From the NCBI GenBank assembly GCA_919902045.1, contig CAKKSP010000041.1, positions 1 through 60,740 on the forward strand: a stretch of 60,740 bases of DNA. Reading direction: 5' to 3'. The translations under genes were made by a program, and so were the position numbers. Below the pieces are notes generated by a model. The model worked only from the letters and a program-made list of their open reading frames with translations, searched no databases and was not told the origin of the DNA. Positions 20,453 through 24,106 of the stretch are shown one piece after another (within the stretch, counting starts at the first letter, position 1; each line of letters opens with the position of its first letter). The DNA comes from Omnitrophica bacterium GWA2_41_15 (lineage in GTDB: Bacteria; Omnitrophota; Gorgyraeia; Gygaellales; Profunditerraquicolaceae).

Positions 20453-21700
20453 ATGATTAATAAGATAGCAAAAGAAGAGATAAAAAAAGGTACTGTGGTG
20501 GTGCTTTGTAACCGTAAGCATAAACTTAAGAAGCCTTGTGCTGTAGGTAGCGGCCTAAGGACTAAAGTTAATGCCAATATCGGTACTTCAGCAGAAAAAA
20601 TAAGTATTAAAGATGAGCTTAAAAAATTGGATGCTGCCCAAAAAGCCGGAGCAGACGCGGTAATGGATTTAAGTACCGGGGGAGATATAGTCAAGGTGCG
20701 GCAGGAGATTATAAGCCATTCCACTGTTCCTGTAGGGACCGTGCCAATATATGAGATAGCAATTAATGCTAAAAAAAGAAGTAGAAATAAGGATTTCCTT
20801 TCTTTTACTGCTGAAGATATCTTTGAGGTTCTGGAGCGGCAGGCCAGAGAAGGGGTTGATTTTTTTACCATTCATGCCGGAGTTACCCGAAAGAGTATTT
20901 TGGCGTTAAAAAAGCATCCGCGGTTGATGGGGATAGTCTCGCGCGGAGGGGCAATTTTAGCGAGTTGGATGTTGCGCAATAAGAAAGAGAATCCATTTTA
21001 CGAGTATTTCGATAAAGTTTTGCATATTGCCAAAGATTATGATATAACTATAAGCTTGGGAGATGGTTTAAGGCCTGGCGCAATTGCAGATTCTACGGAT
21101 AAACCACAGCTCACGGAGTTAAAGATCCTTGGAGAGCTTGTAGATCAGGCGCGTAAAGCAGGTGTCCAGGTGATGGTTGAAGGGCCTGGGCATATTCCGC
21201 TTCCTCAGATTGAAAAAAACATTGCTCTTGAGAAAAAATGGTGTAAGGGCGCGCCTTTTTATGTGCTTGGGCCGCTGGTAACGGATATTGCCTCTGGTTA
21301 TGACCATATCAGTTGCGCAATCGGTGGAGCATTGGCAGCCTGGAAAGGGGCAGATTTCTTATGCTATGTTACAGCTTCTGAACATCTGCGGCTTCCTGAT
21401 TATAAAGATGTCTACGAAGGGGTAATTGCTTGCCGGATTGCTGCTCATGCCGCGGATATTGCTAAAAATGTACCCGGGGCAAGGCAGTGGGATAATAAAA
21501 TGTCGCATGCCAGGCGATTGCGTGATTGGAAAACTCAAATAAGCTTAAGCATAGATCCGGAAAAAGCAGCCCGGTATCATGGGCTTAAACACGCAAAAGC
21601 AGGAGATATCTGTACGATGTGCGGGGAGTTCTGTTCTATAAAAATCAACGAAGAATGTTTTGCAGGTAGCCAACAGGCAGTTCCTGCAATGCGGGTGTAA
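20453..21700 (+). CDS. thiC: Phosphomethylpyrimidine synthase
   Basis: VMDLSTGGD, SRGGAILASWM, GPGHIPL, C-terminal CTMCGEFCSIK. Confidence 0.97.
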   Translation: MINKIAKEEIKKGTVVVLCNRKHKLKKPCAVGSGLRTKVNANIGTSAEKISIKDELKKLDAAQKAGADAVMDLSTGGDIVKVRQEIISHSTVPVGTVPIYEIAINAKKRSRNKDFLSFTAEDIFEVLERQAREGVDFFTIHAGVTRKSILALKKHPRLMGIVSRGGAILASWMLRNKKENPFYEYFDKVLHIAKDYDITISLGDGLRPGAIADSTDKPQLTELKILGELVDQARKAGVQVMVEGPGHIPLPQIEKNIALEKKWCKGAPFYVLGPLVTDIASGYDHISCAIGGALAAWKGADFLCYVTASEHLRLPDYKDVYEGVIACRIAAHAADIAKNVPGARQWDNKMSHARRLRDWKTQISLSIDPEKAARYHGLKHAKAGDICTMCGEFCSIKINEECFAGSQQAVPAMRV

Positions 21701-21795
21701 TTTTCCGCCGTATAATTAAATACAAGGCGGAATCCCGACGCAGGAAAAAAGAAGAGGCGACGGGACAATGGTAGAATGGCAGCCTTTTGTGTTCT

Positions 21796-21866
21796 GCGAG
21801 AGTAGTTCAGTGGCAGAACACCAGCTTCCCAAGCTGGATATGGGGGTTCGATTCCCCTCTCTCGCT
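21796..21866 (+). tRNA. tRNA-Gly (anticodon CCC)
   Basis: Cloverleaf read by eye: acceptor GCGAGAG/CTCTCGC, anticodon stem CCAGC-TTCCCAA-GCTGG, T arm GGGGG-TTCGATT-CCCCT, discriminator T; no encoded CCA. Confidence 0.95.
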
Positions 21867-22508
21867 TTAGCTATTTGTTTATTTATTTTAGCGGGTTGCG
21901 CGACAGTACCCAAAACAGCGTCATTACCTAAACCGCCTAGCGGTTTGAATGGTTTTTATCATAGAGTAGAAAAGGGCCAGACCCTTTGGGGAATATCTAA
22001 ACAATATAATATTGATTTAGATCAGTTAGTAGAGATAAATCGTATTACTGATAAGACTGCGCTTGAAGTAGGGCAGATGGTTTTTATATCATCTGTATTG
22101 CAGGAAGAAGTTAAGAAAATTAATCTAAACCTTATAAAGGCAGAAGATAATTTTATTTGGCCGTTAAAGGGGAGGCAATTAGGTAATTTTGGAGAAGTAA
22201 TTAACGGCCGGGTTAATAAAGGGATCAATATTGTTTCATCCGGAGCAAACACAATTGTATTTGCTGCAAGAAGCGGAAAAGTAGTTTTTTGCGCTCCAAG
22301 TTTTAAGAGTTACGGTTCTACGGTAATAATTGATCATGGCGATGGTTTTTTGACTGTTTATGCGTTTAAAGCGGAATTGCTTGTTAAAGCAGGAGACTCT
22401 GTTTTGCAGGGTGCTTCTATTGCAAGGTTAGCGGGTCAAAGACAACTATATTTTGAACTCCGTAAAGGGCATATTCCGCAGAATCCAACTTTTTTTCTGC
22501 CGCGGTAA
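21840..22508 (+). CDS. LysM + M23 peptidase lipoprotein (NlpD-like)
   Basis: Lipobox ILAGC preceded by MGVRFPSLALAICLF; LysM YHRVEKGQTLWGISKQYNI; degenerate M23 domain. Start inside tRNA-Gly (the ORF-track start 21768 mostly translates the tRNA). Confidence 0.75.
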   Translation: MGVRFPSLALAICLFILAGCATVPKTASLPKPPSGLNGFYHRVEKGQTLWGISKQYNIDLDQLVEINRITDKTALEVGQMVFISSVLQEEVKKINLNLIKAEDNFIWPLKGRQLGNFGEVINGRVNKGINIVSSGANTIVFAARSGKVVFCAPSFKSYGSTVIIDHGDGFLTVYAFKAELLVKAGDSVLQGASIARLAGQRQLYFELRKGHIPQNPTFFLPR

Positions 22509-22513
22509 ACATT

Positions 22514-24106
22514 ATGGTAAAAGAGATATTCTTAGGCCGAAGCCTTCAGCGCGAGCTTATTGAAAAACGAATTATTGATTTAAAAAACGGTTATCGTCAG
22601 AATATCGCGATTATCGGCGATGAGCTGGTTGGTAAAACTTCGCTTATTTTTAATTTTATCCGCAACTTCTCCGATCCTCATATTTTACCCCTCTATCTTG
22701 AAGTTAGGCCCGAGCCGTTTAAAGATTTTAAGCGCCGCTTTATGGGCGTGCTTTTATATGCATTCTTAGATAACAGCAGTATAAGCCTCCAGGAAAATCT
22801 TGATTTTCTTATTGAAAAATCCCGTAATTTTATACCTAAAACCGCCGATAAAATAACCGACTTATTAAGAAATCCTGTTAGTAAGAAGAAAGCGGATAAT
22901 TTTTTTGAGCTGCTTGAAGTCTGCGACCTGATTTATCAGGAAAGTGGAAAGCGCTGTGTTGTCATCTGGGATGAATTCCACAATCTTGAATATATGGGTA
23001 TTAAAACTTTATACGCCGAATGGTCAAAGGCCCTTATTACCCATAAAAATACGATGTTTATCATCACCAGTTCCCTGCCATCTAAAGCAAAAAAGATTCT
23101 TGCGCATAACCTGTCGCTTTTATTCGGGAATTTTCAGTCGATCAGCTTAGAACCTTTTGATGTGCATACCAGCGAGGTGTATTTAGATATTAAATTTGAA
23201 GGTAATCATTTAGATAAGGGCCTGCGGAACTTTTTAGTACATTTTAGCGGAGGTTATCCATTTTATCTTAATCTGTTAAGCGAAGGGATGTTAAAGCATG
23301 AAAAAATGCCGCTTACGCAGGTACTTGTTGAGTTGTTGTTTAGTTCAACGGGAATTTTAAATCAGCGTTTTAATAATTATTTAAAACGTTTGGTTTCTTT
23401 GCCAAATAGCCAGGATTATTTGTCGCTCTTGTACTCTATTGCCAGCGGCCATAATCGCCTTAAAGATATTATGCACATAAGCCATAAAACCGCAAAAGAG
23501 ATAAACGTCCGGCTTAATTATTTATTGGAACTGGATGTAGTTACAAGAAGCGGTGATTTTTTTAAGATTAACGACCGTCTTTTTGGTTTTTGGCTAAAGT
23601 TTGTTTATCAAAAAAAGGCAAATGCCCTGACCTTTGATGCTAAAAATCAAAAACAGCATTTTACGTCTTATCTCGATGTTGTGATTAAAGAATTTATAGT
23701 GTCTTCTGCTAAGCCGATACCCGAGAGAATGATTGAACTTTTAAGGCTTTTTGAAGACGATATAATTCAAGTTGAAGAAAAGAAATTCAGGCTAAACCAT
23801 TTTAGGGAATTAAAACAGCTTGAGTTTAATAGCCGGGGATTAGGGGAAGGTGTGTTAGGCCGTTCCGAAGATAGCGTCTGGATCATGGCTTTTAAAAATA
23901 AGAAATTAACAGAAGAAGATGTTACAGAGTTTGCTAGGGAATGCAAAAAATACCGTAATAAACTTCAGCAGAAAATCATTATTTCTCTTGATGAGATAGA
24001 TATTAATGCCAGGTTGCGGGCTTTAGATGAAAAAATTTTAACTTGGGGATTAAGCCAGGTAAATGAACTAATGGATTTATACGCAAAGCCAAGGATAGTT
24101 ACATGA
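22514..24106 (+). CDS. P-loop ATPase of the archaeal-type ATPase/DUF234 class
   Basis: IAIIGDELVGKTSLIFNFIRNF Walker A, CVVIWDEFHNLE Walker B, winged-helix and nuclease-like C-terminus. Confidence 0.7.
   Translation: MVKEIFLGRSLQRELIEKRIIDLKNGYRQNIAIIGDELVGKTSLIFNFIRNFSDPHILPLYLEVRPEPFKDFKRRFMGVLLYAFLDNSSISLQENLDFLIEKSRNFIPKTADKITDLLRNPVSKKKADNFFELLEVCDLIYQESGKRCVVIWDEFHNLEYMGIKTLYAEWSKALITHKNTMFIITSSLPSKAKKILAHNLSLLFGNFQSISLEPFDVHTSEVYLDIKFEGNHLDKGLRNFLVHFSGGYPFYLNLLSEGMLKHEKMPLTQVLVELLFSSTGILNQRFNNYLKRLVSLPNSQDYLSLLYSIASGHNRLKDIMHISHKTAKEINVRLNYLLELDVVTRSGDFFKINDRLFGFWLKFVYQKKANALTFDAKNQKQHFTSYLDVVIKEFIVSSAKPIPERMIELLRLFEDDIIQVEEKKFRLNHFRELKQLEFNSRGLGEGVLGRSEDSVWIMAFKNKKLTEEDVTEFARECKKYRNKLQQKIIISLDEIDINARLRALDEKILTWGLSQVNELMDLYAKPRIVT

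Follow-up and report, generated by a model that had tools for sequence, protein, structure and literature searches.

A tRNA-Gly(CCC) gene probably nested within the first codons of a lipoprotein gene in Omnitrophota

Organization of the locus

The window, that is, the whole stretch of 60,740 nucleotides that we analysed (contig CAKKSP010000041.1, forward strand), comes from a MAG of Candidatus Omnitrophota with a completeness of 82%. The features that bear on the tRNA and the lipoprotein are as follows.

20453-21700, + strand: thiC, upstream and co-directional (PF01964, E 3.1e-181)
21752-21757, + strand: AAGAGG, Shine-Dalgarno-like, 10 nt before ATG 21768 (duplex energy -5.8 kcal/mol)
21766-21783, + strand: CAATGGTAGAATGGCAGC, tRNA remnant (D arm and 5' anticodon stem, from the 5' half of another tRNA-Gly copy), which carries ATG 21768
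21768-22508, + strand: LysM/M23 lipoprotein ORF from its likeliest start, ATG 21768; 246 aa, containing the whole tRNA
21796-21866, + strand: tRNA-Gly(CCC), complete cloverleaf, no encoded CCA (ARAGORN and Infernal/Rfam RF00005, 71.0 bits)
21840-22508, + strand: shorter ORF from the start chosen in the initial annotation, an ATG in the variable loop/T arm; 222 aa, a less likely start
21897-21899, + strand: lipobox Cys codon (LAGC), expected residue 1 of the mature lipoprotein, conserved among homologues
21960-22088, + strand: LysM domain (PF01476, residues 65-107 of the 246-aa reading; E 3.8e-12)
22212-22487, + strand: Peptidase_M23 domain (PF01551, residues 149-240 of the 246-aa reading; E 2.2e-17)

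ARAGORN and Infernal agreed on the tRNA-Gly at 21796-21866, where the initial annotation had placed it, with all stems intact and a score of 71.0 bits. Further upstream lie a thiamine monophosphate synthase gene and thiC, and the downstream gene begins at 22514; as the neighbouring genes are all co-directional, the tRNA lies within an apparent operon. No sigma-70-like promoter was found near or in the tRNA within 21600-22000. Riboswitch control of the thi genes was considered and rejected, the tRNA being the sole Rfam match in the window. Direct repeats were absent within 21690-21900, and the upstream tRNA remnant became visible only against the tRNAs of relatives; it matches the D arm of their tRNA-Gly(CCC) exactly (for example, that of G031), a match for which the chance expectation is none. 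Several truncated tRNA-Gly 5' halves resembling this remnant also form a tandem array with a GGCGGGA-type repeat next to an intact tRNA-Gly(UCC) in G000:C45 (L002, 1585-1860).

The open frame of the lipoprotein extends from 21721 to its stop at 22508 and reads, as originally described, ATG(21840) GGG GTT CGA TTC CCC TCT CTC GCT TTA GCT ATT TGT TTA TTT ATT TTA GCG GGT TGC. Of its in-frame starts, ATG 21768 precedes the tRNA by 28 nt, GTG 21789 lies close to the tRNA on the same side, GTG 21810 falls in the D loop, and ATG 21840 follows; the first three of these, in the stretch open from 21721, were absent from the initial annotation. Its statement that the lipoprotein lacks an independent start after the tRNA was borne out: in the window, the in-frame codons from the end of the tRNA up to the lipobox Cys at 21897 include no ATG, GTG, or TTG. 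The ten codons wholly 3' of the tRNA encode LAICLFILAG, which is not a complete signal peptide because it contains no Lys or Arg. The LAGC motif and the hydrophobic core, with a mean Kyte-Doolittle value of 2.29, were judged by eye and script. LysM and M23 were the sole Pfam matches above the cut-off in the window protein, with no tyrosine recombinase, and the mature protein is an ordinary LysM/M23 lipoprotein of the NlpD-like class by virtue of these two domains. Pfam detected no tRNA-related domain in it, and thus nothing that would link its function to the tRNA.

Integrity of the tRNA

The 13 distinct tRNAs from overlap loci (defined below) had standard pairs at 100% of stem positions, and 10 of the 21 pairs were changed on both sides, that is, compensatorily, a signal far above that of shuffled and slid controls. 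These compensatory changes, together with the 71-bit score, ruled out a pseudo-tRNA. By pattern search, no second Gly(CCC) gene was found in 11 overlap assemblies, including that of the window, all of them MAGs and incomplete. GGG makes up 22% of the Gly codons in long ORFs of the window. The genome also carries a Gly(UCC) tRNA, so the CCC tRNA need not be strictly essential.

Conservation and recurrence of the overlap

The lipoprotein or a related protein was present in 57 of 58 close relatives, and tRNA-Gly(CCC) lay directly upstream of it in 148 of the 161 loci fetched first, many of the exceptions being contig ends. The pair also occurs outside Omnitrophota, on the Ratteibacteria contig L251 (JAQURI010000039.1), and is absent at homologues on Nitrospirae and deltaproteobacterial contigs; the Nitrospirae homologues instead have a tRNA-Pro(CGG) about 400 nt upstream. 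The tRNA-lipoprotein neighbourhood is therefore conserved across the phylum and old; the overlap is not old. Among 191 distinct homologous loci, 177 have their own lipoprotein start behind the tRNA, at a median of 27 nt past the discriminator, and 14 have none between the tRNA and the lipobox. These 14 overlap loci are G000 (the window), G013, G031, G055, G271, G307, G183, G299, G327, G347, G370, and G400, plus L233 (contig JADFXT010000001.1) and L242 (contig JACQQW010000163.1). Two later cases, G225 and G233, came from a search in the families of G183 and G271 and bring the number to at least 16 genomes. Overlap cases are spread over families f1, f9, f24, and f36 and two contigs without a family code, and a quick protein tree of about 200 residues required at least 11 changes of state between overlap and separate genes, an unrooted count in which gains and losses are indistinguishable. 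We concluded that the overlap is derived and confined to some lineages. The initial annotation had looked to related genomes for a conserved overlap, which occurs in several lineages, and had held that relatives with an independent start would speak against it; most relatives do have such a start, and the overlap itself stands.

A different reading is that the tRNA sequence is not translated at all, the lipoprotein having a non-standard start codon behind the tRNA, being a dying gene, or owing its junction to an assembly error. Every source is a MAG and the overlap is the minority state among relatives, both as this reading would allow; even so, we consider it highly improbable. Recurrence of the arrangement in 16 genomes from four families or more ruled out an assembly error, and the mature protein is still conserved, with 58% identity between the window and G013. 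The signal-peptide core and lipobox were retained in all overlap loci.

Several loci with separate genes had features of their own. Nine of them carry the 3' end of tRNA-Gly a second time, exact over 14 nt or more, at 69-160 nt past the intact tRNA and ahead of the lipoprotein: L131 (G198), L204 (G218), L154 (G187), G067, G141, G146, G131, G203, and G190; G389 (L299) has a longer repeat of the same kind. These second ends resemble the attL/attR sites of small integrated or decayed elements and might have arisen by integration at the tRNA 3' end. The second copies of G198 and G218 can still be read as VRFRSPA or TRFPPPA ahead of the hydrophobic core, a possible trace of a former overlap. In L120 (G392), a close relative of the overlap genomes, an insert resembling a miniature mobile element (about 100 nt, its long inverted arms being GCACCCCCTGATAGATTT...AAATCTAGGGGGTGC) separates the tRNA from the lipoprotein and supplied a new start codon. 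At 42 homologous loci the lipoprotein starts no more than 14 nt behind the tRNA, and a Shine-Dalgarno-like sequence (-5 kcal/mol or lower) precedes 2% of these starts, compared with 30% of long window ORFs; as the processed mRNA would be nearly leaderless, tRNA processing might even help translation there.

Reading frame through the tRNA

The frame of the lipoprotein relative to the tRNA was identical in all 14 overlap loci, whereas the other 177 loci were distributed at random (63, 59, and 55). This frame, nt-3, is shared by G225 and G233, and in the window it reads the tRNA at 21796-21866 as ESSSVAEHQLPKLDMGVRFPSLA. It was open through the tRNA in 14 of 14 overlap loci and through 118 of 152 non-overlap tRNAs, for which the other two frames gave 15 and 5, being closed nearly always by the conserved U8-A9-R10 and by UAG at 19-21; it is the only frame normally readable through a whole tRNA-Gly. 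The spacing from tRNA to lipobox in G183 and G400 exceeds that in G347 by 33 nt, an exact multiple of three. Behind the tRNA, most overlap loci encode 9-16 residues without Lys or Arg before the Cys, and G271 encodes a single Arg. Non-AUG starts do exist, as an untranslated tRNA could require; the fixed frame, however, is not something that an untranslated junction demands, and together with the uncharged n-region of most cases it ruled out a non-standard start directly behind the tRNA. From the frame and the spacing we consider the tRNA sequence very likely to be coding here.

Position of the translation start

Of the 14 overlap loci, 13 had an open in-frame start in the 40 nt preceding the tRNA, compared with 37 of 174 others (p 1e-7); for ATG alone the counts were 9 of 14 and 22 of 174 (p 3e-5). 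Where the upstream stop codon could be resolved (12 overlap and 119 other loci, the only ones counted), the upstream start fell on or next to the preceding stop codon in 6 of 12 compared with 7 of 119 (p 2e-4). These p values, and the one given below, treat related loci as independent, and several overlap cases belong to one family (f36). The contacts are ATGA in G013 and TTGA in G031 (both with thiC), TAATG in G299 and G327, adjacent codons in G183, and a distance of 2 nt in G370. The two cases outside the set that gave the idea fit the same pattern, G233 with GTGA and G225, where the upstream gene encodes a PfkB-family kinase, with codons 3 nt apart. In the 40 nt before the tRNA, G271 lacks any start, and the starts of G055, G031, and G307 are TTG or GTG only. 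At L233 and L242 the upstream long ORF itself enters the tRNA, by 9 and 20 nt, before its stop, and because of this the tRNA may overlap two protein genes there.

These upstream starts have to be weighed against a start inside the tRNA, at ATG 21840 or at GTG 21810 in the D loop, read from an unprocessed transcript or from an mRNA beginning within the tRNA gene, an explanation that we find rather unlikely. From ATG 21840 the product begins MGVRFPSLALAICLFILAGC, a textbook lipoprotein signal peptide; the combination of an in-frame ATG, an Arg-coding T arm, and an open frame occurs in 13 of 14 overlap loci compared with 70 of 177 others (p 1e-4); and the D-loop starts have moderate Shine-Dalgarno energies of -3.4 to -9.3. 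The T-arm ATG, however, was not enriched, being present at 6 of the 14 overlap loci and at 68 of the other 177, and ATG 21840 has no Shine-Dalgarno-like sequence (0.1 kcal/mol, compared with -5.8 kcal/mol for ATG 21768). Starts inside the tRNA would also be expected to produce overlaps in the nt-2 frame, which offers a usable ATG in 58 of 152 non-overlap tRNAs yet never occurred among overlap loci. They leave the enrichment of upstream starts unexplained, and a search of 21600-22000 gave no promoter-like site. Translation from ATG 21840, as proposed in the initial annotation, is therefore probably not what happens: the overlap loci share upstream starts instead.

The enrichment of upstream starts and the absence of the nt-2 frame indicate that the whole tRNA is probably nested in the ORF. 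The tRNA is intact, the ORF is open throughout on the same strand with a start outside the tRNA, and the arrangement recurs in a consistent frame, as a nested tRNA should. ATG 21768 is presumably the start used in the window. It lies 68 nt from the thiC stop and inside the tRNA remnant, and for these reasons its presence could be accidental. The resulting leader, at 43 residues, would be long for the signal peptide of a lipoprotein and counts against an upstream start, and starts in the D loop or T arm are possible.

Proposed expression of the nested genes

We propose, as the more probable reading of these sequences, that the lipoprotein is translated through the tRNA from just upstream of it (in the window, from ATG 21768), with tRNA-Gly(CCC) nested in its first codons, in at least 16 genomes. 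The sequences themselves show the overlap and its recurrence, the single frame, the intactness of the tRNA, and the enrichment of in-frame starts upstream; from them we infer translation itself, where exactly it starts, that the leader is removed, and that each RNA has an either-or fate. The tRNA would contribute about 23 codons, including the Arg of the signal-peptide n-region (...QLPKLDMGVRFPSLA...), and signal peptidase II would remove everything before the lipobox Cys. If the tRNA folded first, RNase P and a 3' tRNA nuclease would release it, severing the start codon and destroying the message; if ribosomes, whether from the upstream gene or from the site at 21752, were the first to arrive, they would read through and produce a pre-lipoprotein with the 43-residue leader. 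The overlap would be tolerated because the tRNA-encoded residues never reach the mature protein, and the signal peptide, from which they are cut away, would be a natural host for a tRNA.

That tRNA processing would cut the message had already been pointed out in the initial annotation, and the anatomy of the locus agrees with it; a coupling of tRNA maturation to lipoprotein expression would follow from the same anatomy. As most relatives keep the two genes apart, this coupling is not an essential control, or is at least dispensable. A working switch, in which competition between tRNA processing and ribosomes from the upstream gene sets the shares of tRNA-Gly(CCC) and lipoprotein, the translation status controls an envelope protein, and the overlap has originated repeatedly from that benefit, seems to us unlikely.

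Our results suggest that, in bacterial genomes of 1-2 Mb, a protein gene can come to enclose the gene of an ordinary elongator tRNA that is apparently present in single copy, and that this can happen repeatedly. Annotation programs that forbid overlap between a tRNA and a CDS will miss such genes or assign them the wrong start. The phylum presents a gradation, with separate genes at one end, full nesting at the other, and abutting starts between them, and thus a testbed for competition between tRNA processing and translation.

Comparison with known systems

In the thrU-tyrU-glyT-thrT-tufB operon of E. coli, a tRNA-mRNA operon, the start codon of the protein gene lies behind the tRNA. Most Omnitrophota relatives are in this state, in that a tRNA directly precedes a protein gene on the same strand and is probably on one transcript with it. 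Processing of the tRNA spares the protein start there, whereas the lipoprotein of the window has no start of its own.

Mitochondria provide cases of a tRNA fully inside a coding sequence on the same strand, such as the tRNA-Lys inside cox1 of Armadillidium vulgare, as cited in PMC8124441. Those are compact organelle genomes, whereas the genomes here are bacterial, 1-2 Mb in size, and the two genes are separate in most relatives. In the SSV-type "suicidal" archaeal integrases the gene holds a tRNA-derived att site that is translated as part of the protein (reviewed in PMC8371274), so that, as in Omnitrophota, coding sequence is identical to part of a tRNA gene. There, however, integration is what dictates the overlap, and the ORF encodes the recombinase of a mobile element, whereas the ORF here encodes a conserved cell-wall lipoprotein that lies beside the tRNA throughout the phylum.

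The closest precedent is selC (tRNA-Sec), nested in the 3' end of selB in Alphaproteobacteria and described in that paper as the first tRNA gene reported to be nested in a protein ORF of a bacterium (Mukai 2021; PMC8124441). Among reports of tRNA/CDS overlap in bacteria it was the sole direct precedent that we found in the open-access literature, in which the Omnitrophota case did not appear. In both systems a whole tRNA is read as protein within a bacterial ORF; the selB/selC arrangement is likewise recurrent, with relatives that have lost the overlap and relatives that keep tRNA remnants, and an either-or fate of the transcript was proposed there too, also as a hypothesis. The selB/selC overlap involves a specialised tRNA-Sec at the C-terminal end of a protein that is the factor binding that very tRNA; this functional relation is peculiar to selB/selC, and its lack at our locus restricts the analogy but leaves the anatomical parallel intact. 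In Omnitrophota, by contrast, an ordinary elongator tRNA would lie at the 5' end, within a removable signal peptide, in the gene of an unrelated lipoprotein.
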